From a virus, in the IMG/VR virus record IMGVR_UViG_3300034104_005687, positions 124,001 through 188,000 of that record: DNA of 64,000 nt; one strand, 5' to 3'. Under the pieces are notes generated by a model. The model saw only the letters and a program-made list of their open reading frames with translations, did no database searches and was not told where the DNA came from. Both the position numbers and the translations under genes were made by a program. Positions 13,609 through 59,747 of the stretch are shown piece after piece (position 1 is the first letter of the stretch; every line of letters starts with the position of its first letter).

Positions 13609-14751
13609 ATGTCCAATTTCTTTTGCGCAGCCCCCTGGCGTGGCCTGCATATCAATCCCCGAGGCGATGTCAAAACCTGCTGTGCAGGCAATCCCAACAT
13701 GCTGGGAAATCTAAATCAACAAAGCATTGTTGAAATTCTCAACAGCAACTTGATGGCAGAAATACGCCAAAACTTAGCACAGGGGCAACCTCATGAATAT
13801 TGCTCTAACTGTGTTCGTGCTGAACGTTTTGGCGCCGATAGTGAACGTAAATGGCACAACGATGTCAATCCAGATTTTGATTATGCCACAGCTGGAGATC
13901 AATATCATTATCCTGTGATTGTTGATGTGCGATGGAATACAACCTGCAATCTGAGTTGTAACTATTGCGGCGAAGCATGCAGTAGCAAATGGGCCAGCAT
14001 CAAAGGAATACCATTCAAGTCAGGCGCCAGACCCTATTATGATCAAGTTTGTGATTTTATTGAGCAACATTACAATCACATACATGAAGTTGCGCTGGTC
14101 GGTGGCGAACCGTTGTTGTTGCCTGAAAACGAACGACTGCTGGATGTCATCCCCAAAGATGCCATTGTTACATTGATTACCAATCTCAACGTTGACTTTG
14201 AAAAAAACAAAATATTCCAAAAGCTTGCTGCTCGTAACCGAGTAGGGTGGTCAATGAGTTTTGATAACATTGGGCCCAGACTTGAATATGTTCGACATGG
14301 TGCAAGCTGGAACACAATCAAAAACAATCTTGCTGTGATCAAAGATTTGATGAAAACACAAGGTCAGTGGGGCGGAATTCACGCAGTGTACAACCTCTAC
14401 AGCGCCACACGTATTTGCGAACTGCGTGAATTTGCTGACAAAACAGGTACCACAGTGCTGTGGCAAAATCTGTTTCAACCCGATTATCTTGATCCGTTCT
14501 TGCATGGTCCAGAAGTAGCGCAAGCTGCCATTGCAGAAATTGAACGTTTTTACGCCATGGGAATAGCAACACCAGCTGAACGCATGTTCTTTGATCAAGC
14601 CTTGCAGAATTATCAAACAGTTAAAACAGCACACCCTGGGATTGAACGTAAATTTGCAAAGCACATTCAAGAAATTGAATCAACGTATCACCCAGACACA
14701 AAAGGAAAGTTTGCCACATTGTGGCCTGAACTAGCAAGTTTATGCAAATAA
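13609..14751 (+). CDS. Radical SAM protein with N-terminal twitch/SPASM-like domain (1)
   Basis: A 380-residue radical SAM enzyme. The [4Fe-4S]-SAM motif is C113-x3-C117-x2-C120 (CNLSCNYC), followed by GGEPLL near residue 165. Before the core lies an N-terminal auxiliary cluster region, FCAAPW...GDVKTCC (Cys6, 24, 25) plus YCSNC (Cys65, 68), the arrangement of twitch-domain radical SAM proteins, where the SPASM-like part precedes the barrel. The substrate is unknown; relatives modify peptides or small molecules. First gene of a late operon, with its 3' end overlapping the next start by 10 bases. Confidence 0.88.
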   Translation: MSNFFCAAPWRGLHINPRGDVKTCCAGNPNMLGNLNQQSIVEILNSNLMAEIRQNLAQGQPHEYCSNCVRAERFGADSERKWHNDVNPDFDYATAGDQYHYPVIVDVRWNTTCNLSCNYCGEACSSKWASIKGIPFKSGARPYYDQVCDFIEQHYNHIHEVALVGGEPLLLPENERLLDVIPKDAIVTLITNLNVDFEKNKIFQKLAARNRVGWSMSFDNIGPRLEYVRHGASWNTIKNNLAVIKDLMKTQGQWGGIHAVYNLYSATRICELREFADKTGTTVLWQNLFQPDYLDPFLHGPEVAQAAIAEIERFYAMGIATPAERMFFDQALQNYQTVKTAHPGIERKFAKHIQEIESTYHPDTKGKFATLWPELASLCK

Positions 14752-15890
14752 CACAAAGCCCTACTTTTTGTCCAGCACCCTGGACCAGTATCAACATAGA
14801 TCAAACAGGCTTAGTAATGCCATGTTTTCACACTGGCTATGAATTAGGTAATATCAAACGCATACCTATTCAACAAGTGTTAAAAGACAACCCGATTAAA
14901 GACATAAGACAGACTATGGCACGTGGTGAATGGCACAAAGCATGCGCCTGGTGTAAGAGGCTTGAAGAAACTACTGGATCCAGCGGAAGAACTGTGAGAA
15001 ATACAAACCCAGAGACATTGGCAGCTATTGATGCTGATATAGATTTTTTTAAGCTGGAGCAGTTGGTAGTCAATTGGAGTAATCTTTGCAATTTAACCTG
15101 TGTGTATTGCAACGATCACACGTCAACGGCTTGGCAAAGCATTAAAAAAATTCCCATCAATTATGTCAAAAACGAACACGACGATTTAATTGAGTTGGTC
15201 AAAACACAAGGTCATAACATTCAAGGATTGTCCCTGGGCGGTGGAGAGCCACTGCTGCAAAAAGGACTTGATGTATTTTTAAGTTACCTTAATCCTGCCA
15301 CAGTATCAGTAATGGTCACTACCAATCTCAGCATGGAAATTACAACCAATCCTATCTATCAAATTCTTAAAACATGGCCCAAGGTAGAATGGATGGTGAG
15401 CTTTGACAATGCCAACAAAGAAAAGTTTGAATATGTTAGAGATCGAGCAAATTGGGAACAGTTTGTAAAAAATTTGCGACAAATGAAACAAGATGGGCAG
15501 CAGGTAAGTGCACATCCTGCGTACAGTATCTATTGCGCATTAGATCTTGAAGAATACTATGATTTTTGTACAAGTGAAAATTTGAATATTTACTGGTGCG
15601 AACTCAATCATCCGATAGAATTGGACATACGGAGACATTCTCAAACATTGCGAGACTTGGCAGTCGGAGAAATCAATCGGGTGATAGATAAGTATGGCGA
15701 TAGAAACGGTTTGGCAATTGATGTGTTGAAAACTTACCGTAATACGTTACAAGACAATAGCTACCTCAAGTATCAAGAAAATTTTAAATCATCAAAAACG
15801 TTAGCATGGCACGTAGACATAGAAAACACTTTGAAAAAAACAAACAAGTTTGTTGACTTATGGCCAGCACTGGCAAAGGAAATACAATGA
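14742..15890 (+). CDS. Radical SAM protein with N-terminal twitch/SPASM-like domain (2)
   Basis: This 382-residue paralogue-like neighbour of the previous gene has N-terminal FCPAPW...VMPC (Cys10, 28) and CAWC (68, 71), then the core CNLTCVYC (Cys116, 120, 123), GGGEPLLQ and a TTNLS segment. The two proteins share overall layout but have diverged widely, suggesting successive or parallel steps. It is coupled upstream (10-base overlap) and downstream (ATGA overlap with the SGNH gene). Its codons become more AT-rich than those of the preceding gene. Confidence 0.88.
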   Translation: MQITQSPTFCPAPWTSINIDQTGLVMPCFHTGYELGNIKRIPIQQVLKDNPIKDIRQTMARGEWHKACAWCKRLEETTGSSGRTVRNTNPETLAAIDADIDFFKLEQLVVNWSNLCNLTCVYCNDHTSTAWQSIKKIPINYVKNEHDDLIELVKTQGHNIQGLSLGGGEPLLQKGLDVFLSYLNPATVSVMVTTNLSMEITTNPIYQILKTWPKVEWMVSFDNANKEKFEYVRDRANWEQFVKNLRQMKQDGQQVSAHPAYSIYCALDLEEYYDFCTSENLNIYWCELNHPIELDIRRHSQTLRDLAVGEINRVIDKYGDRNGLAIDVLKTYRNTLQDNSYLKYQENFKSSKTLAWHVDIENTLKKTNKFVDLWPALAKEIQ

Positions 15891-23979: not shown

Positions 23980-24509
23980 ATCGATTGAGTCTTTTGTTTA
24001 CGGCTACACAATGCAACGGGTGGCCTAAATTAAAATTCTCAATTGACGATGATTTACTGCAAGACTATGAATTTAACAGTGGATCAGCACTGATTACATT
24101 GCCAGTAGATCTGCTAGATGGAGAGCATCAACTGGACATAGAGTTGTATGGCAAATCATCATCGAATACCATGGTAGTCAATGACGTCATTGTTGAAGAT
24201 CAACTAGCAACATTGGAATCTATTTTTATCGATGATGTTCAGGTACCTGATTTTGTAAAGTACAAAGGAATTTATACAGCACGAAATCTTGTTATGCCGC
24301 AGGCGTTGACATGGGGTATACCAGGAGTGTGGTCCTTGAAATTTAATTATCCAATTATTGATTGGATTCTTGAATGCAAAATTAACGATTATTATGAGTT
24401 CGATAAGTACGACGAATGGTCTACGTCAGTCTATCATCCTAAAAAGACTCAGGCATTAATGGACGGATTCCGTGAGCTTGAAGACCTATTAGCCAATGTC
24501 AAAATTTGA
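23976..24509 (+). CDS. Unknown protein, possible beta-sandwich
   Basis: A 177-residue protein coupled to uvsX by an ATGA overlap and overlapping the radical SAM gene by 14 bases. The N-terminal ~85 residues alternate short strands (LSLLFTATQ, LKFSIDDDLLQ, ALITLPVDLLDGEHQLDIELYG), like a carbohydrate-binding beta-sandwich; the rest is aromatic-rich. A sugar- or protein-binding accessory to the downstream enzymes is conceivable, not shown. Confidence 0.65.
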   Translation: MNRLSLLFTATQCNGWPKLKFSIDDDLLQDYEFNSGSALITLPVDLLDGEHQLDIELYGKSSSNTMVVNDVIVEDQLATLESIFIDDVQVPDFVKYKGIYTARNLVMPQALTWGIPGVWSLKFNYPIIDWILECKINDYYEFDKYDEWSTSVYHPKKTQALMDGFRELEDLLANVKI

Positions 24510-26013
24510 AAAAGCTTCGTTGATTGCGTCGGGTCTGTTGCCGATTAACAAACCGCCTCCTGCACTTGCATTTTTGTCAAGTATGTGCGAGGTCAATCAG
24601 TTGAGCCACGAATTGTTTGACTTGAACATACATATCAAGAACAGCATTGGGGAAGAATTATGGAATCGCGCATACACTATCTTTGCTTCGTTGGATTATA
24701 TTGCTGACAAAGAAGTACTGGATCCTGTTGTTGAATCTATTGATACAGCAGTTGATCTAATAATAGCACAATCCAGTGATTTGATATTGATGTCAGTTTT
24801 CAGCTATCAGCAAATTGCAATCACCAAATTGTTTTTGATATCGCTTCGCAAGAAAACCAATACCACAGTGATTATCGGCGGTCCAGGTGTTACATACGAA
24901 ATGCCCAGTGGAGTAACAGCCGGTAAACAGATGCTGGATGCAGGTCTAACTGACTACTATGTACTAGGAGAAGGCGAGCATGTGCTCGACCAATTTCTCA
25001 AAGGTTGTCTTGAGCTTGGCATCAACTACTCGGGTGCACCTGAAACTTGGGCCATTCAAATTGACAACTTAGACGATTGTGTTTTTCCCACGTACAAGAA
25101 TATTAATTTTGATAACTATTCTCCTGGTATTGACTTAGACCATACCATCAGTATAACATGTAGTCGAGGGTGTGTTCGTAGATGCACATTTTGTGATGTC
25201 GGGCACCTTTGGAAGAAATTTCGATTTCGAAGTGCCGACAATGTTATTTCAGAAATGCGAAAACACATCAACGAAACTGGAATCAAACAGTTTTTTTTCA
25301 CAGACAGTTTAATCAACGGTCCGTTGAAACAATTCACAGAATTGGTTTCGCAATTGGCCTTGTTGAGAAAAACTGATCCAGTTTTTGCAAGTGTCAGTTA
25401 TGTTGGTCAGTTTATTATACGCAGTCAGGCGCATCACAAAGAAGAAATGTACAAGTTGATGCACGAATCAGGATGTCAGTATATTGTGATAGGCATTGAA
25501 AGCGGCAGTGAACAAGTAAGAAATCACATGGGCAAGAAATTTTCCAATACAGATATAGACTATCATTTGTCAATGTGTTCAAAGTACAAAATTAAAAATT
25601 CATTGTTGATGTTTACTGGATATCCAACTGAAACTCTGCAAGACCATCACGACACAATGACCATGCTTCGTCAATATCAAAAGTACTTGATGGATGAAAC
25701 AGTGATTGCATTGACCTTGCATCAACCATTTGTGTTGCTGAAAAACACACCAATATCAGACATGAAGCACGAAATAGGAATTGTCAACGAGCAAGACAAT
25801 ACATATTTTTTTGAAGTACAGTCAAACCCAGATTTTACTGTCAAGGAAAAATTTAGGCGGTATCTTGAGGTAGTTAAACTTTCTATAGATCTAAAATACC
25901 CCGGATCTTGGGCAGATTTAGCAAGCCTTAGATCACACATACACGCACTTACACAATTTATTGATCAAGGCAATAAAGACACGGTAAGTATCAACCAAGG
26001 AGTTAAAACATGA
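24496..26013 (+). CDS. Radical SAM protein with B12-binding-like N-terminal domain
   Basis: A 505-residue enzyme of the B12-binding radical SAM layout. Residues ~80-170 form a Rossmann-like half (SSDLILMSVFSYQQ, TVIIGGPGVTYE, YYVLGEGEHVL) as in cobalamin-binding domains, but the DxHxxG ligand motif is absent, so cobalamin may bind base-off or not at all. The core motif is C226-x3-C230-x2-C233 (CVRRCTFC), then FFFTDSLING and IGIESGSEQVRNHMGK. Substrate unknown; the family does methylations and skeletal rearrangements. More AT-rich than uvsX. Confidence 0.87.
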   Translation: MSKFEKASLIASGLLPINKPPPALAFLSSMCEVNQLSHELFDLNIHIKNSIGEELWNRAYTIFASLDYIADKEVLDPVVESIDTAVDLIIAQSSDLILMSVFSYQQIAITKLFLISLRKKTNTTVIIGGPGVTYEMPSGVTAGKQMLDAGLTDYYVLGEGEHVLDQFLKGCLELGINYSGAPETWAIQIDNLDDCVFPTYKNINFDNYSPGIDLDHTISITCSRGCVRRCTFCDVGHLWKKFRFRSADNVISEMRKHINETGIKQFFFTDSLINGPLKQFTELVSQLALLRKTDPVFASVSYVGQFIIRSQAHHKEEMYKLMHESGCQYIVIGIESGSEQVRNHMGKKFSNTDIDYHLSMCSKYKIKNSLLMFTGYPTETLQDHHDTMTMLRQYQKYLMDETVIALTLHQPFVLLKNTPISDMKHEIGIVNEQDNTYFFEVQSNPDFTVKEKFRRYLEVVKLSIDLKYPGSWADLASLRSHIHALTQFIDQGNKDTVSINQGVKT

Positions 26014-26267
26014 GCGAATTGATAGCATCAGAAATTTGGGGAGAACTCAAACGTTATGTCAACACTGTTGACCGGGCAGAAGCAGCCGAAACTGTGGTAC
26101 AAATTTTAATGGACAATGATTCAGACATTGACGCCATTAAAAATGCTTTTAAGAGTGATTTAGATATCAAACGTGCTCTTACTGCATATCTTGACAACGA
26201 CAATGATTATGCTGATGACGAGGATGACGAAGACAACATAGACGAAGAGTTGGACTGGGAAGATTAA
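26010..26267 (+). CDS. Small acidic protein conserved in T4-like marine phages
   Basis: An 85-residue protein with an N-terminal helical part (IWGELKRYVNTVDRAEAAETVVQ) and a strongly acidic tail (DDEDDEDNIDEELDWED). Similar small acidic proteins occur near uvsX/uvsY-type genes in T4-like marine phages as I recall. It could mimic DNA or act as an adaptor. ATGA overlap upstream, 1-base overlap downstream, Shine-Dalgarno AAGGAG at 25998. Confidence 0.65.
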   Translation: MSELIASEIWGELKRYVNTVDRAEAAETVVQILMDNDSDIDAIKNAFKSDLDIKRALTAYLDNDNDYADDEDDEDNIDEELDWED

Positions 26268-27520
26268 TGCCCGACAAATATTTTCCAATCCGTACTGCCA
26301 CTGCTTGCCAACTCAAATGGAACTGGAGCACGCTGTATCTTTATTCAGGAGAAACAGCATCGTGTCATCGTACTGGATGGGGAAATATTGATCCAGAGAA
26401 CTTTGATCAGTTTCACAACACTGAAAAAAAGTTACAAGAACGTCGAGACATGTTGGACGGAAAATGGCCTGAACACAGTTGTGATTATTGCCGAAAAATT
26501 GAAACAGCAGGCGGGTTCAGCGATCGAATGTTGCACTTGACCATGCCAAATCAGAGTCCAATAGAATTGGAAACAGATCCAACCGCAATCAATGTTGTGC
26601 CCACAATACTGGAAGTTTTTTTTAACAATACTTGTAATTTGGCCTGTCTGTATTGCCTGCCTATTTTGAGTTCTAAGATAAACCAAGAAAATATTGCATT
26701 TGGAAAGTTTGACAACAATGGAGTAGTAATTGAGCCTGCAGAAATCAGCAACACTCCTTTGTTGATTGACAAATTCTGGAACTGGATGAGATCTAATTCT
26801 CTTGGGCTAAAACGATTCAATGTGTTGGGTGGAGAACCTTTTTATCAAACAGAATTTTATCAACTGTTGGATTATTTTGAAGAGACTGCACATCCAGACC
26901 TGGAACTAGGTATTGTTACAAATCTAGCAATTAGAACAGAAAAGCTCAATGAGATTTGCGAGAAATTAAAAAAACTTTTGATAAATCGAAAACTCAAAAG
27001 GGTCGACATAACATGCAGCATAGACTGTTGGGGAGCCGAACAAGAATATGTTCGTTATGGGTTGGATCTAGCACAGTGGCAACAAAACTTTGAATTTTTA
27101 CTGAGCAAAAAATGGATAAAACTAAACATCAATCAAACAATCAGTGTGCTAACAATCAAGACCATGCCCGAGCTGCTGAGCAGATTAGAACAGTGGAGAA
27201 AAATTAGACCAGTTGGACATTTCTTTTCAACTGTTTCTCCTCAGCCAACGTACATGGTGCCTGCAATCACAGGAAAAGATGTGTTTAAACAAGATTTTGA
27301 AAAAATCATTGCTGCCATCCCAAATCACACCGATGAACAAAAACTTGCAATTGAATACATGAAAGGTATTCAAACTGAACTTGAAAAATCAACAGTTGAT
27401 TTGACAGAACTTGGTAAACTAAAAACATTTCTCAACGAAAAAGATCGACGTCGAGGAACCAGCTGGGAAACCACCTTTCCTTGGCTAATTGAAATTTTTG
27501 ATCAGAACCTAACAAAATAA
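26267..27520 (+). CDS. Radical SAM protein with N-terminal twitch-like domain (3)
   Basis: A 417-residue enzyme of the same broad class as 13609 and 14742. Auxiliary cysteines are Cys14, Cys33, Cys72 and Cys75 (CDYC) in the N-terminal region, and the core motif is CNLACLYC (Cys123, 127, 130), followed by NVLGGEPFYQ and TNLAI. The N-terminus differs (no FCxxPW; instead CQLKWNW...TASCHRTGW). Substrate unknown. It is in the uvsX-uvsY operon, expressed earlier than the 13.6 kb pair if promoters are read correctly. Confidence 0.85.
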   Translation: MPDKYFPIRTATACQLKWNWSTLYLYSGETASCHRTGWGNIDPENFDQFHNTEKKLQERRDMLDGKWPEHSCDYCRKIETAGGFSDRMLHLTMPNQSPIELETDPTAINVVPTILEVFFNNTCNLACLYCLPILSSKINQENIAFGKFDNNGVVIEPAEISNTPLLIDKFWNWMRSNSLGLKRFNVLGGEPFYQTEFYQLLDYFEETAHPDLELGIVTNLAIRTEKLNEICEKLKKLLINRKLKRVDITCSIDCWGAEQEYVRYGLDLAQWQQNFEFLLSKKWIKLNINQTISVLTIKTMPELLSRLEQWRKIRPVGHFFSTVSPQPTYMVPAITGKDVFKQDFEKIIAAIPNHTDEQKLAIEYMKGIQTELEKSTVDLTELGKLKTFLNEKDRRRGTSWETTFPWLIEIFDQNLTK

Positions 27521-54437: not shown

Positions 54438-54907
54438 ATCAACAACAAAAACTAGAAAAATTTGCACACAGTCATGCTCGTGCAGCTTTGAAACAATCAA
54501 TTATTCCATTGGATGACGGATATTTGGTGTTTGGGCAATACGTCATAAAAGAAGCTGATCACGGTTTTGATGTGTTTCAATACAATGATCAGGTTGGATC
54601 ATTTGGCAGCAAAAAATCTGCCATGAGCTGGTGCATAGCTGATAGCTGCAAACAGTACCGACTGAGCTTTGAAATACAAACACTAGATTCAAAAAAGTCT
54701 CAGTTGTCTGCAGACATATCTATCAGGCGCCAGGTAGGTGAAATGAGCAAACACAGCAGCATCACTGAACTGATTGAAACCAAGCTAGAACCCAAAATTC
54801 GTTACTATAATTCAGTAAAAGCCGAACTTGAAAAATGTATTAATTCGGCTAAATATCTACAACTTAGAGGATTCTCAAATGAAACTGCAAGACCTAGCCG
54901 CGGCTAA
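54434..54907 (+). CDS. Unknown helical protein
   Basis: A 157-residue protein from ATG 54434 in an ATGA overlap. It has FAHSHARAALKQSIIP, GFDVFQYNDQVGSFGSKKSAMSW and a helical C-terminus (ITELIETKLEPKIRYYNSVKAELEKCI). Its last 29 bases overlap the next start, and a TAAATA element (54850-54855) is embedded in its coding sequence. No domain is recognised. Confidence 0.6.
   Translation: MNQQQKLEKFAHSHARAALKQSIIPLDDGYLVFGQYVIKEADHGFDVFQYNDQVGSFGSKKSAMSWCIADSCKQYRLSFEIQTLDSKKSQLSADISIRRQVGEMSKHSSITELIETKLEPKIRYYNSVKAELEKCINSAKYLQLRGFSNETARPSRG
54850..54855 (+). promoter_or_regulatory. Late promoter TAAATA for the prohead-core-like gene
   Basis: GCTAAATA, 23 bases before ATG 54879, with a TTAGAGG site. 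It lies inside the upstream gene. Confidence 0.55.
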
Positions 54908-55793
54908 ACCCACACAACAAATTTCCAAAGTATTTGAAAGTTACTTTGGGGCAAAGTTTGATGTCAGCCAACTCACTGCTGCCCAAACTAATTCTATGCT
55001 GCGCCGAGTACGTCAAGTCATTGGTGAACATCGTTCCAGCACCAATCGTCATCAAAGCGAGCGCAATCCTGGTTATCTTAAACTGGTAATGGTTGAGCAA
55101 GCATTGAGCGCACGTCTGTCAGAAATGGCTCCTGTGCAACCTGCTGGAACACCTGAGCAACAAAAAGCTCAACAAGCAATGGCCACTGCTACCATCAGCG
55201 CCACCAAGGACCCCAAACTCAAAGCTGCACTGACCAAGGCCACCAAAGGTCAAAGCCTCACACCCGATGAACAGAAAATGGTTGCTGGCGCTGCACTCAT
55301 GAAAACTGAAAACAAGTTGGCCCGTGCCTACAAGATGTTGAAAGAAAGCGAAGTTCAACAAGCTCAGGTCGTGTTGGCTGCTCAAGACATGGTAGACAAA
55401 ATGCAAGCCATGCTGGAAGATGTCAGCGAACTGCAATTCAAAGAATTGCCTGCTTTGGTTGATTCAATCAAGAATCAAGTGGGCATTGACCAAGCTCAAC
55501 AATTCAATGCTGACGCCAGTGCTGCTCTCAGCGGGCTGATGCAGAATCTACAACAAGCCAAACAGCAGATGGACGCTGCACTTGGTGTAGTAACTGGACA
55601 ATCTACTGGCGCTGCCGCTGATCTTGGTGCCGAACTAGGTGCCCAAGCTGGCGCTGAAGCAGGTGCAGATCTTGGTGCTGAACTAGGTGCCGATGCCGGC
55701 GCCGATCTAGATGCTATGGCCGCTGATGCTGTTGACGACTTAGACAACGAAGAACCAACTGGTGGTCAAGCACTGGGTCGTGCACGTAGATAA
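54879..55793 (+). CDS. Prohead-core-like / structural protein with Ala-Gly-Asp tail
   Basis: The 304-residue product is chosen from ATG 54879, which has a Shine-Dalgarno and a late element; the frame is open to 54828. It is almost all helical (RRVRQVIGEH, MVDKMQAMLEDVSELQFKEL, ADASAALSGLMQNLQQAKQQ) and ends in a low-complexity GAELGAQAGAEAGADLG-type tail. Similar proteins are listed as structural in marine T4-like phages. A scaffold/core role is inferred. Confidence 0.68.
   Translation: MKLQDLAAAKPTQQISKVFESYFGAKFDVSQLTAAQTNSMLRRVRQVIGEHRSSTNRHQSERNPGYLKLVMVEQALSARLSEMAPVQPAGTPEQQKAQQAMATATISATKDPKLKAALTKATKGQSLTPDEQKMVAGAALMKTENKLARAYKMLKESEVQQAQVVLAAQDMVDKMQAMLEDVSELQFKELPALVDSIKNQVGIDQAQQFNADASAALSGLMQNLQQAKQQMDAALGVVTGQSTGAAADLGAELGAQAGAEAGADLGAELGADAGADLDAMAADAVDDLDNEEPTGGQALGRARR
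55609..55719 (+). repeat. Coding Ala/Gly/Asp low-complexity repeats
   Basis: The translation repeats G-A-[DE]-L-G-A-E-L-G-A units about four times at the C-terminus of the prohead-core-like protein. The DNA repeats GGTGC/GCTGATCTTGG units. Confidence 0.6.
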
Positions 55794-56151: not shown

Positions 56152-56192
56152 GTCAACATTTGGTTGACTTTAGGCGTTATATATAGTATAAT
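56152..56192 (+). promoter_or_regulatory. Sigma70-type promoter with hairpin over the -35
   Basis: TTGACT (56164-56169), 17 bases, TATAAT (56187-56192). An inverted repeat GTCAAC (56152-56157) / GTTGAC (56163-56168) overlaps the -35 and could be an operator. It is followed by AAAGGAGATC before ATG 56211. Confidence 0.72.
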
Positions 56193-56210: not shown

Positions 56211-56525
56211 ATGAAAAAGATCTTAATTTCACTAGCATTGTCAATGGTCACTGTGCCAGCACTAGCACAACATTGGCATCATGGACACAGGTATCATGGC
56301 CCAGTCAGACACCACGGGCATTATGGTCATAACAACTGGGTCGCACCGTTGATCATTGGCGGCGTAGTAGGTGCTGTTATTGCCAATAGACCCCCGCAGC
56401 CAGACACAATAATTGTTCATCAATACCCACCAACAGTTTTTACTCCACAGGTCAACTGTACTGTGTGGAAAGAGATTGTAACCCCCGAAGGTAATGTTTA
56501 CCGCGAAAGAACCTGTACACAATAA
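56211..56525 (+). CDS. Secreted histidine-rich protein
   Basis: A 104-residue protein with a Sec signal peptide (MKKILISLALSMVTVPALA, cut near residue 19-20), then a His-rich stretch HWHHGHRYHGPVRHHGHYGH (12 of ~24 residues), a hydrophobic VAPLIIGGVVGAVIA segment and a C-terminal region with two Cys. The His cluster suggests binding of Ni, Zn, Fe or Cu in the periplasm. Sigma70-type promoter, strong AAAGGAG site, and immediately upstream of the Fe-S genes. Possibly a metal scavenger; not shown. Confidence 0.75.
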   Translation: MKKILISLALSMVTVPALAQHWHHGHRYHGPVRHHGHYGHNNWVAPLIIGGVVGAVIANRPPQPDTIIVHQYPPTVFTPQVNCTVWKEIVTPEGNVYRERTCTQ

Positions 56526-56526
56526 T

Positions 56527-56919
56527 ATGGCATATTCAAACAAAGTTGTAGACCACTATGAAAATCCCAGGAATGTCGGATCTTTTGACAAGAGTGATAC
56601 TGATATTGGTACTGGTATGGTTGGCGCACCTGCTTGCGGCGACGTTATGAAATTACAGATAAAGGTAGATCATGATACAGGTATTATTACAGATGCAAAA
56701 TTTAAAACGTATGGCTGCGGATCGGCTATTGCGAGCTCGAGCCTCATTACAGAGTGGGTCAAAGGTATGCACATCGACCAAGCCGGAGAAATCAAAAACT
56801 CCGACATTGCTGAAGAACTGGCCTTACCCCCAGTAAAGATACATTGCTCAATTCTTGCCGAAGACGCCATCAAAGCGGCTGTAGAAGACTATCGCAAGAA
56901 ACATGATCTCGTTCACTGA
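56527..56919 (+). CDS. iscU: Fe-S cluster assembly scaffold IscU
   Basis: A 130-residue IscU. It builds [2Fe-2S] and [4Fe-4S] clusters on three Cys: Cys37 (PACGDVM, Asp39 beside it), Cys64 (YGCGSA) and Cys107 (KIHCSI). The HscA chaperone-binding LPPVK motif is present (100-104). Start at 56527 gives the standard IscU N-terminus MAYSNKVVDHYENPRNVG; the longer GTG frame would add nothing. The sequence resembles beta/gammaproteobacterial IscU and looks functional. It follows the His-rich gene in one operon; its 3' end overlaps the next gene. Confidence 0.95.
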   Translation: MAYSNKVVDHYENPRNVGSFDKSDTDIGTGMVGAPACGDVMKLQIKVDHDTGIITDAKFKTYGCGSAIASSSLITEWVKGMHIDQAGEIKNSDIAEELALPPVKIHCSILAEDAIKAAVEDYRKKHDLVH

Positions 56920-57226
56920 TATAGCAAGAAACAAAATCCAAAAACTAGTCACAGCCAAAGGTTATGCTGGCATTCGGCTTGGCGTTAAAACTACAGGTTG
57001 CTCAGGTCTTGCTTATGTGTTAGAATACGTTAAAGAATACACATCAGAAGTCGGTGTTACAAACTATGCACAAGATGGCTTTGTTGTTTTGGTTGGAATC
57101 AAAGACGACATCTATCTTAGAAACATGACGGTAGATTATGTACGTCAAGGCCTTAACGAAGGCTTTGAATTCAGCAACCCCAATGAACGTGACCGATGTG
57201 GTTGCGGCGAAAGTTTTAGAGTTTAA
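56903..57226 (+). CDS. iscA: Fe-S cluster carrier IscA
   Basis: A 107-residue A-type Fe-S carrier that accepts a cluster from IscU and passes it to apoproteins. All ligands are present: Cys33 (TTGCSGLAY), Cys99 and Cys101 (CGCGESF). Glu-Gly-Phe (GLNEGFEFSNPN) and RLGVKT are also standard. Overlaps iscU by 17 bases, so the two are translationally coupled. No IscS desulfurase, HscA/B or ferredoxin gene is in the window, so sulfur would come from the host. Confidence 0.95.
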   Translation: MISFTDIARNKIQKLVTAKGYAGIRLGVKTTGCSGLAYVLEYVKEYTSEVGVTNYAQDGFVVLVGIKDDIYLRNMTVDYVRQGLNEGFEFSNPNERDRCGCGESFRV

Positions 57227-57936
57227 TGATCACACAAAGATACAACTACACACCACTGAACCGTGAAACCATTGACGGCAAACGACACTACTGTTTGCCT
57301 GATGGCAGCAAGGTGCCCAGTGTTACAACTATTCTAGATCGAACCAAGCCCGCTGAAGCTCGAGAAGCCTTGGCCAACTGGAAACGTGCAGTGGGAGAAA
57401 AACGTGCCCAAGAAATCACCACAGAAGCTGCCAACCGCGGCACACGCATGCATGCCTATCTTGAGCAGTATGTGTTGACCACGGATCTAAAACCACTGCC
57501 CGGCAATCCTTATGCACATCCCAGCTGGTTTATGGCAGCAGAGGTCATACTCAAAGGACTACAACATGTAGATGAGTTTTGGGGTACGGAAGTTCCACTG
57601 TACTATTCGGGTCTGTATGCAGGCACCACCGACTTGATTGGCACCTGGAAAGGCCAGCCTGCTATTATGGATTTCAAGCAAAGCAACAAGGTAAAAAAGC
57701 GCGAATACATCGGGGACTATTTCCTGCAACTTGCAGCCTATGCAGCAGCACACAACGAAATGCACAGCACTAATATCAACACTGGTGTTGTATTGATGGC
57801 TGTGCAGCCAAAACTGCAGGCCGATGGTACTTACTCTACTCCTGAATACCTGGAGTTTGTGATCGAAGGCAACGAGTTTGCGTACTGGGCCGACGAATGG
57901 ATGAAACGAGTTGAGTTATACTATTTGACACGCTAA
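57226..57936 (+). CDS. PD-(D/E)XK exonuclease (MGME1/Cas4-like)
   Basis: A 236-residue protein with GTRMH (72-76), GTTDLIG (Asp136), AIMDFKQSNK (Asp149, Lys151) and the QLAAY motif IV (168-172), as in MGME1/RecB-like nucleases. T4-like cyanophages often carry such an exonuclease, which would process DNA ends. It overlaps the iscA stop by one base. Catalytic residues all appear intact. Confidence 0.87.
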   Translation: MITQRYNYTPLNRETIDGKRHYCLPDGSKVPSVTTILDRTKPAEAREALANWKRAVGEKRAQEITTEAANRGTRMHAYLEQYVLTTDLKPLPGNPYAHPSWFMAAEVILKGLQHVDEFWGTEVPLYYSGLYAGTTDLIGTWKGQPAIMDFKQSNKVKKREYIGDYFLQLAAYAAAHNEMHSTNINTGVVLMAVQPKLQADGTYSTPEYLEFVIEGNEFAYWADEWMKRVELYYLTR

Positions 57937-57965: not shown

Positions 57966-59747
57966 GTGGCAATTGTACAAATATCAAGAATAACCCAACG
58001 TCAAGGTCTACTTGACGATTTACCCCAACCGCTGGCTGGCGCTGAATTTGGGTGGGCACTAGATCAACGAAGACTGTTTATCGGCAATGGCGAAGTGGCC
58101 GAAGGTGCTCCTGTAGTTGGCAACACTGAGATTCTGACAGAATTCACTGACGTGCTGTCGTTGGCCAGCGCCTACACATATCAAGGTCAGGCAGCAGGCT
58201 ATGATGCTCAAACTGGTCCCACAACCGGCGACCCTATAAGTCAAAGTATTCAAAGCAGATTGGACAGCTATGCAGTGTCCACAGTGTTTGGCGCAGTAGG
58301 TGACGGCGACACTGACGTAACAGCAGCCATTAACCGAGCACTTTTTCAGTTGTACTGTGTGCAGTCTAACACACAAATTCGCCGTAGCTTGTTTTTCCCG
58401 GCTGGCACATATATCATCACAGATACTATCAAGGTACCGCCATACGCCAAGCTCTACGGAGAAGGCGCTGACAGCACAATCTTTTTGTTTGAAGTACAAA
58501 TATGGGCAGCCAACACCGGCTATGCAGAAGGCGTCCTTGTCAAGGTAGAATCTGCGACTCCAGGGATATTCAACTACTATCGATCAGTAGCAACAGTTCC
58601 GCCCACAGGCATTCTTATCTCCAACACTGCTTATTGGGATCCAACCACACTGCCAACCTATGTAGTAGAAACTGCAGACAGCCTGCAGCAAACCGGTGTC
58701 AACATTGGTCAAGGCAACGCTGTGTCTCCGCGCAATGTGGAAATTTCTGGCATGACATTCCAGACCACTGAAGTAGGCAGTCATCAGATCTGCAATCTAG
58801 AACGTGTACAACAGTGTTATTTTGACAGTGTGAACTTTGTGGGTCCTCTGACCGAACAAGACTTGGACACTGATATTGACAATTTTAGCTGTGTGGTATT
58901 CAACGGTACTGCACAAGTACCGCCTACTCAAATTACACTGGACAAGTGCAAATTTATTGGTGCCACATATGCTGTCAGCACTGATCAACTGGTCAAAGGT
59001 GTGACCATCAGCAATGGATGGATGGATACGCTGTATCAAGGTGTGTATCTTGGTGATACCACTGTGGTCAATGGCGGCCCAACTGGCGTGAGAATTGTAC
59101 ACAACGAATTTGACAACATCTTTGCCGAAGGCATTGTGATGGAAAATTGCAGTCTCAACGCCAGTGCATACAACACATTCTATGATGTAGGCAATCACTT
59201 TTTTGGTACGGCGTTGCCTCAAACTCCTATCATCAACATCAATGCTGACAGCAATCTCAGCATAGGTGATCTGTTTCAGCGCACTGACACTCAGGCACTG
59301 ACACAGCCTAGAATACAGATCTACAATGTTGCCACTGGAGTTATTCCGCAATCCACAGGATACTCAGGTTCCAGCAAGCTTCAACTTGGCAGCTATGTTC
59401 AAGATGCAGGGCAACAAGAGGTACTGGAAGATGCAGCGACTGCTGAGCCTTTGTTTACAATTGACGTGTCAGAGTCAGTGTCTTTGGGTGGATTTTCTAG
59501 TTTTTCCGTAAACTACACTATCAAACGCCCAGGGTCTGCCCCATTGATTTCACTGCGTACTGGAGTACTCAGTGTGCAATCAGCCGGAGGGTACACATTG
59601 AACTACACCGACGACTACAGCGAAAACAATTCTACAGGTATCACACTGAGCGTGACACAGGTTAGCGATGCAGTAACTGTTCGATACACAGCTACATCGA
59701 CTACTTTTGACGGAACTATTTACTATACTATCACACACTTTGCTTAA
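57966..59747 (+). CDS. Tailspike-like protein with pectate-lyase beta-helix
   Basis: A 593-residue protein starting at GTG 57966. The N-terminus (SRITQRQGLLDDLPQPLAG, DQRRLFIGNG) is a phage fibre anchor. Residues ~105-160 carry FGAVGDGDTDVTAAINRAL and SLFFPAGTYIITDTIKVPP, the Pectate_lyase_3 start, followed by a right-handed beta-helix and a C-terminal beta-sandwich (TIKRPGSAPLISLRTG). It is likely to bind or cleave a host polysaccharide. Active-site residues cannot be assigned from sequence alone. Confidence 0.87.
   Translation: MAIVQISRITQRQGLLDDLPQPLAGAEFGWALDQRRLFIGNGEVAEGAPVVGNTEILTEFTDVLSLASAYTYQGQAAGYDAQTGPTTGDPISQSIQSRLDSYAVSTVFGAVGDGDTDVTAAINRALFQLYCVQSNTQIRRSLFFPAGTYIITDTIKVPPYAKLYGEGADSTIFLFEVQIWAANTGYAEGVLVKVESATPGIFNYYRSVATVPPTGILISNTAYWDPTTLPTYVVETADSLQQTGVNIGQGNAVSPRNVEISGMTFQTTEVGSHQICNLERVQQCYFDSVNFVGPLTEQDLDTDIDNFSCVVFNGTAQVPPTQITLDKCKFIGATYAVSTDQLVKGVTISNGWMDTLYQGVYLGDTTVVNGGPTGVRIVHNEFDNIFAEGIVMENCSLNASAYNTFYDVGNHFFGTALPQTPIININADSNLSIGDLFQRTDTQALTQPRIQIYNVATGVIPQSTGYSGSSKLQLGSYVQDAGQQEVLEDAATAEPLFTIDVSESVSLGGFSSFSVNYTIKRPGSAPLISLRTGVLSVQSAGGYTLNYTDDYSENNSTGITLSVTQVSDAVTVRYTATSTTFDGTIYYTITHFA

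Follow-up and report, generated by a model that had tools for sequence, protein, structure and literature searches.

An overlapping iscU-iscA gene pair in a proposed partial Fe-S cluster assembly pathway of a T4-like jumbo phage

Background

Why would a phage keep genes for the scaffold and the carrier of iron-sulfur (Fe-S) cluster assembly, and which enzymes would they serve? The question is raised by two overlapping genes, iscU and iscA, located in a stretch of 64,000 nucleotides (hereafter the window) that corresponds to bases 124001-188000 of the 349,369-base virus record IMGVR_UViG_3300034104_005687. Related observations exist: in the accessible text of their paper, Nishimura et al. (2017) report 16 environmental genomes with A-type carriers and/or IscU, as well as one T4-like environmental genome carrying a glutaredoxin gene and 12 radical SAM genes, and propose that the Fe-S assembly proteins of viruses supply Fe-S proteins of virus and host alike (PMC5332604). 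The presence of IscU, A-type carriers and many radical SAM genes in T4-like viruses is already known, with the same interpretation as here, and the IscU of those genomes is near gammaproteobacterial homologues. The present record differs from them in being that of a 349-kb jumbo phage, and the same portions of the paper mention neither an overlapping pair, a linkage to superoxide dismutase (SOD) and a pairing of IscA with ErpA, nor a His-rich exported protein and radical SAM genes inside the pair (PMC5332604). According to the accessible part of another study, HMO-2011-type phages, a different marine phage group, harbor iscU and erpA, i.e. a scaffold and an A-type carrier (PMC9038755). The conserved virus-specific operon layout, which includes SOD and a second carrier, has apparently not been described earlier.

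Results and discussion

General features and gene neighbourhood

The record is that of a T4-like jumbo phage of 349 kb. Its T4-like hallmarks include the portal protein gp20 (Portal_T4, 4.6e-104) and the Gp23 capsid protein (1.9e-96), and it also encodes a T4-type terminase, a prohead protease, baseplate and sheath components, UvsX and a family B DNA polymerase. A ferritin-like protein, AhpC, a DnaJ-type protein, Clp proteases, a glutaredoxin and a SOD are also present. Elsewhere in the genome, homologues of the curli-secretion proteins CsgG and CsgF are found together with FecR and CHASE2/guanylate-cyclase domains (G000:188001-268000); CsgF/CsgG were earlier reported in pelagimyophages (PMC7029224).

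The features of the locus and of the related genes are listed in Table 1. The first-pass annotation had placed the pair in an operon with tail-fibre-like and structural genes on both sides. The surroundings are indeed those of a phage, with small T4-like genes and a virion structural gene upstream of iscU, but this description holds only in part, as the neighbours also include a PDDEXK exonuclease and, after the pectate-lyase-like tail protein, the gene of the aerobic ribonucleotide reductase NrdA.

Table 1. Position and main matches of the features discussed (window coordinates unless a prefix is given)
Feature	Position	Strand	Matches and remarks
Virion structural protein	54879..55793	+	phrog_14154, 3e-11; upstream of iscU
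Sigma-70-like promoter, TTGACT-N17-TATAAT, 11/12	56164..56192	+	Precedes the His-rich gene and iscU; highest-scoring site in the region
Small exported protein	56211..56525	+	Signal peptide, His-rich stretch, WVAPLIIGGVVGA segment, C-terminal C-x-W...YRERTC; ends immediately ahead of iscU
iscU, Fe-S scaffold, 130 aa	56527..56919	+	PF01592 (NifU_N), 1.8e-54; phrog_8429, 3.3e-40
iscA, A-type carrier (ATC-II), 107 aa	56903..57226	+	PF01521 (Fe-S_biosyn), 6.3e-15; phrog_17776, 1.3e-31
iscU/iscA overlap, 17 nt	56903..56919	+	Most viral pairs share exactly 17 or 29 nt
PDDEXK exonuclease	57226..57936	+	phrog_298, 3.4e-55; Pfam PDDEXK_1; start overlaps iscA stop by 1 nt; synteny kept in relatives
Pectate-lyase-like tail/appendage protein	57966..59747	+	PF12708, 7e-13; phrog_17212
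Twitch-domain radical SAM protein, candidate client	13609..14751	+	NF033640, 212.6 bits (cut-off 170)
Twitch-domain radical SAM protein, candidate client	14742..15890	+	NF033640, 195.1 bits
Radical SAM protein resembling B12-binding types, candidate client	24496..26013	+	PF04055, 2e-19; best NCBIfam match of PhpK type, below cut-off
Twitch-domain radical SAM protein, candidate client	26267..27520	+	NF033640, 242.9 bits
Fe/Mn SOD gene overlapping the ErpA-type carrier gene stop-to-start by 4 bases	G000:241841-242718 (L010:941-1818)		
ErpA-type carrier (ATC-I)	G000:242398-242718		Outside the window; 53% identity to E. coli ErpA, 34% to E. coli IscA

The iscU and iscA genes are intact

The iscU gene starts with the ATG at 56527, its stop ends at 56919, and the 17-base overlap with iscA noted at first pass is exact; translation of iscA is probably coupled to that of iscU through this overlap. 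All residues named by the first-pass annotation were found in the translations, namely the IscU ligands C37, D39, C64 and C107 with the chaperone-binding motif LPPVK (L100-K104), and the IscA ligands C33, C99 and C101; IscU H106 is present in addition. The ligand positions are unchanged across 157 viral IscU and 146 viral IscA aligned rows, with the exception of one truncated IscU row, and LPPVK is kept in all 157 IscU rows. The view that neither gene is decaying also held, since dN/dS values of about 0.1 indicate strong purifying selection (medians against viral relatives of 0.083 for IscU and 0.106 for IscA).

In a PDB search, IscU matched E. coli IscU structures at 2.6e-64; a zinc-type SufU identity was rejected, SufU giving only a partial match of about 3e-14. 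IscA matched E. coli IscA structures at 3.6e-25, with IscA and SufA as the first PDB matches, and shows 47% identity to E. coli IscA and 29% to E. coli ErpA. The product of the gene overlapping the Fe-S biogenesis gene iscU is therefore classed, from its sequence, as an IscA/SufA-like carrier (ATC-II) rather than ErpA. In PHROG, family 8429 matched by IscU is a NifU-like Fe-S cluster assembly phage family, whereas family 17776, matched by the protein identified here as IscA, is a phage family of unknown function. We consider it practically certain that the pair is real, intact and owned by the phage, and the two products very probably act as a working Fe-S scaffold and carrier.

The pair belongs to the phage and appears to be an old acquisition

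A misassembly, or a recent host fragment joined to phage DNA, would provide a trivial explanation for the presence of these genes. However, two contigs from other samples (L028 and L188) are 100% identical over 6.4 and 9.0 kb spanning the pair, and the gene order upstream structural gene-iscU-iscA-exonuclease-tail protein-nrdA is kept in many further phages at around 65-78% nucleotide identity. The identical independent contigs and the conserved synteny exclude the fusion of host DNA that the first-pass annotation had named as fatal to its reading; together with the virus-specific overlap and the separate viral clade described below, they leave this explanation a negligible probability, and nothing in its favour was found.

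As in the proteobacterial isc operon (iscRSUA-hscBA-fdx), iscU precedes iscA and all functional residues are present, but the phage genes overlap, are flanked by phage genes, and no IscS or Hsp70 gene was found. Most viral iscU-iscA pairs overlap by exactly 17 or 29 bases, whereas the bacterial pairs are separated by gaps of +4 to +123 bases, bar one outlier alignment. In a joint IscU and IscA tree, the viral sequences form one clade apart from bacteria (SH-aLRT 100), and the same split is obtained with IscU only, with a weak support of 75. Because the bacterial sample consists of the 80 closest sequences, mostly Burkholderiales, a single origin of the viral IscU and IscA is likely but not proved. 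The separate viral clade (100 for the joint tree, 75 for IscU alone) led to the rejection of a recent capture from the host; the transfer appears to be ancient, so viral iscU and iscA would make poor host markers.

The closest bacterial IscU in the 80-sequence sample, at 84% identity, belongs to Burkholderiales, but the assignment of a Burkholderiales host from the best bacterial IscU matches is weak because the viral IscU clade is old. Two TctC-type solute receptors, a Gram-negative porin and a phosphate-binding-type protein are encoded at G000:268001-348000 and would suit such a host. At the DNA level, iscU (56527-56900) is 90-92% identical to three phage contigs (L029, L032 and L033) whose flanks do not reach such identity, and iscA (compared segment 56920-57223) is closest to another one (L189, 87%); iscU seems to have been exchanged among phages independently of its neighbours.

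Distribution in viral genomes

The first-pass annotation had regarded such genes as rare in isolated T4-like phages and occasional in environmental virus contigs. Rarity was borne out for sequenced isolates, with few true iscU/iscA cases among 50,697 phage records, but not for environmental virus genomes, as a scan of IMG/VR revealed at least 599 stretches encoding confirmed close IscU relatives. A second scan of IMG/VR yielded 372 IscA relatives, and iscU lies upstream in all 76 newly fetched IscA loci examined. Phage C48C1 (OQ984149, Kyanoviridae) harbors an iscU at 72% identity and no IscA match in its record. Two records labelled Acinetobacter phage MD-2021a (CAKLQF020000009 and CAKLQH020000011) hold iscU-iscA; the former carries a complete bacterial isc operon and resembles a bacterial chromosome. 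Several matches in the phage collection, these among them, appear to be bacterial isc operons filed as phage and were left uncounted.

A recurrent promoter and a His-rich exported protein precede iscU

The total of sigma-70-like sites across the region is at chance, but of 99 loci (the window and 98 viral clusters) 26 have a site with at most one mismatch in the 500 nt preceding iscU, versus 0.4% of mononucleotide shuffles, and the promoter was therefore weighed by its recurrent placement rather than by number. Between the promoter and iscU lies the gene of a small exported protein, omitted from the first-pass listing, which has no family match in Pfam or PHROG. Its homologues are found directly upstream of iscU on the same strand in 46 of the 99 distinct phage loci, and the family, which displays a WVAPxIIGG segment and two C-terminal types, has members beside iscU in L031, L068, L189, L191 and L259, among others. 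We speculate that this His-rich protein may bind metal.

A second carrier linked to SOD, and the missing ISC partners

The proposed ISC pathway of the phage is partial. No PF00266 class-V aminotransferase match for the cysteine desulfurase IscS and no PF00012 match for the Hsp70 HscA were found in the record, and SufT/PaaD was not found there either; a DnaJ-type protein is encoded. In L063 (3849-4997), a class-V aminotransferase gene (8.2e-76) overlaps iscU by 4 bases; its product resembles a cysteine desulfurase but is not claimed as a viral IscS, the active-site Cys position being seemingly Asn by eye.

The record encodes a second carrier of ErpA type, with a C-G-C-G-S-S-F ending, whose gene lies beside the SOD gene and apart from the isc genes. 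A similar arrangement is known in E. coli, where ATC-II genes are linked to isc genes and ATC-I genes are not, and where an IscU-IscA-ErpA cluster route has been established genetically under air (PMC2682760). In a scan seeded with the ErpA of the record, 45 of 54 distinct viral loci have a SOD gene no more than 1.5 kb upstream of erpA; in 23 of these 45 the two genes are directly adjacent, mostly with the same 4-base overlap. SOD can also adjoin iscU itself (directly upstream in 15 of 99 distinct viral loci, versus 0 of 80 bacterial loci), and at the same 99 loci erpA lies near iscU in six and a CGFS-type glutaredoxin directly upstream of it in one; in contig L365 iscU, iscA and erpA are consecutive. 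Radical SAM matches, 4-16 per contig, occur in all nine contigs of 200 kb or more that bear ErpA; seven of these also have IscU and two lack it. No report of a SOD-erpA or SOD-iscU linkage in phages was found in the open full-text literature.

The tail tip of phage lambda holds an Fe-S cluster. Together with the location of the pair amid tail and structural genes, which many phages conserve, this raises the alternative that IscU and IscA mature an Fe-S or iron site of a virion part. Such a role is improbable given that the sigma-70-like promoter of the pair suggests expression by the host polymerase, probably early, that in other lineages the pair adjoins SOD, erpA, glutaredoxin or a ribonucleotide reductase gene, and that no Fe-S structural partner was found. 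The absence of IscS from the record, IscU being its natural partner, would also be compatible with an interference in which the phage proteins sequester host IscS or iron, starving Fe-S regulators or weakening Fe-S-dependent defence. A decoy, however, would not need unchanged cluster ligands, H106, LPPVK and a second carrier, and the linkage with SOD and radical SAM genes points to use rather than removal, so that we grant interference equally little credit.

Radical SAM genes as candidate clients

A total of 15 radical SAM domain matches were identified in the record, four of the genes being located in the window (Table 1). A long minus-strand run of genes (G000:22148-31318) bears four radical SAM domains in the space of 10 kb. 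The search of environmental virus genomes proposed at first pass proved productive, as radical SAM genes lie inside or just after iscU-iscA in several phages. Around 15 distinct viral loci have other genes between iscU and iscA, and in six of them (L068, L101, L190, L205, L228 and L263) these are radical SAM genes, of four sequence types by eye, with Pfam matches from 6e-13 to 4.5e-5 and three of the six above the gathering score. Another type of insert, found in L233, L235, L236, L239 and L247, is a protein of 246-250 aa that looks like a homing-type endonuclease and has no Pfam match.

With a radical SAM model built from the domains of this record only, without the inserted genes, 12 radical SAM genes were counted at 0-3 kb downstream of iscU, compared with a single one in another 426 kb of flank (p = 8e-5); the first kb upstream (2 genes) was left out of the count. 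In the ErpA-seeded sample, a radical SAM domain follows iscU by 0.6-0.7 kb on the same strand in 4 of 10 iscU contigs, which may represent one homologous arrangement. Because the density near iscU equals the average of this genome while the structural flanks are depleted, the local signal may partly come from a site for accessory genes, into which other cargo is inserted as well. Among 23 long contigs, many of them fragments, those that have iscU and those that lack it show a similar radical SAM density per 100 kb, and at the locus of the window itself no radical SAM gene physically linked to iscU-iscA was seen. Hence the link between iscU and radical SAM genes is real locally and moderate, with several homologous cases, and unproven at genome level; the Fe-S support module proposed at first pass agrees with the linkage at some loci and finds no backing in the genome-wide density.

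This lack of association would also fit a more general host support, in which the pair supplements the Fe-S pool that the host uses for respiration and isoprenoid synthesis, be it during infection or under oxidative stress, in the manner of a classical auxiliary metabolic gene and without particular ties to phage enzymes. The SOD linkage is in line with this, as is the identity of up to 84% between the viral and cellular IscU, by virtue of which the former should work with host partners. Nevertheless, the radical SAM genes that several phages have within or right behind the pair and the 15 matches in the record argue against it, and we regard general host support as unlikely.

A putative relay for phage Fe-S enzymes

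We consider it fairly probable that the pair represents the scaffold-carrier core of a phage-encoded partial ISC pathway, in which an IscU-IscA-ErpA relay would serve phage Fe-S enzymes, and to the same degree we lean towards a function mainly for phage clients. The conserved motif upstream suggests that the cassette would be transcribed by the host RNA polymerase from its sigma-70-type promoter. Since the record yielded neither an IscS nor an Hsp70 gene, the phage IscU would obtain its sulfur from host IscS and rely on the host Hsc chaperones through the intact LPPVK. The cluster would then pass to the phage IscA (ATC-II), produced in step with IscU by way of the overlap, and, by analogy with the E. 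coli route, to the phage ErpA-type carrier (ATC-I), while SOD would shield the clusters from superoxide. As clients we presume radical SAM and other Fe-S enzymes of the phage itself, which may be produced in bulk during infection, when the capacity of the host would be limiting. More tentatively, and with somewhat less than even confidence, a lineage of T4-like jumbo phages may own a superoxide-shielded relay devoted to its radical SAM enzymes, kept as a unit over long times and dependent on the host for sulfur and chaperoning alone.

In metagenomes, the overlap and gene order specific to viruses may aid in telling true viral iscU and iscA genes from host contamination. A phage with 10-20 radical SAM genes has many oxygen-sensitive clusters to fill quickly in an aerobic cell. 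If the proposed relay is correct, the carrier set tied to SOD would offer a handle on the roles of the many phage radical SAM proteins, and the conservation of a scaffold-carrier-carrier set tied to SOD would mean that viruses manage the supply of cofactors, and not only enzymes.
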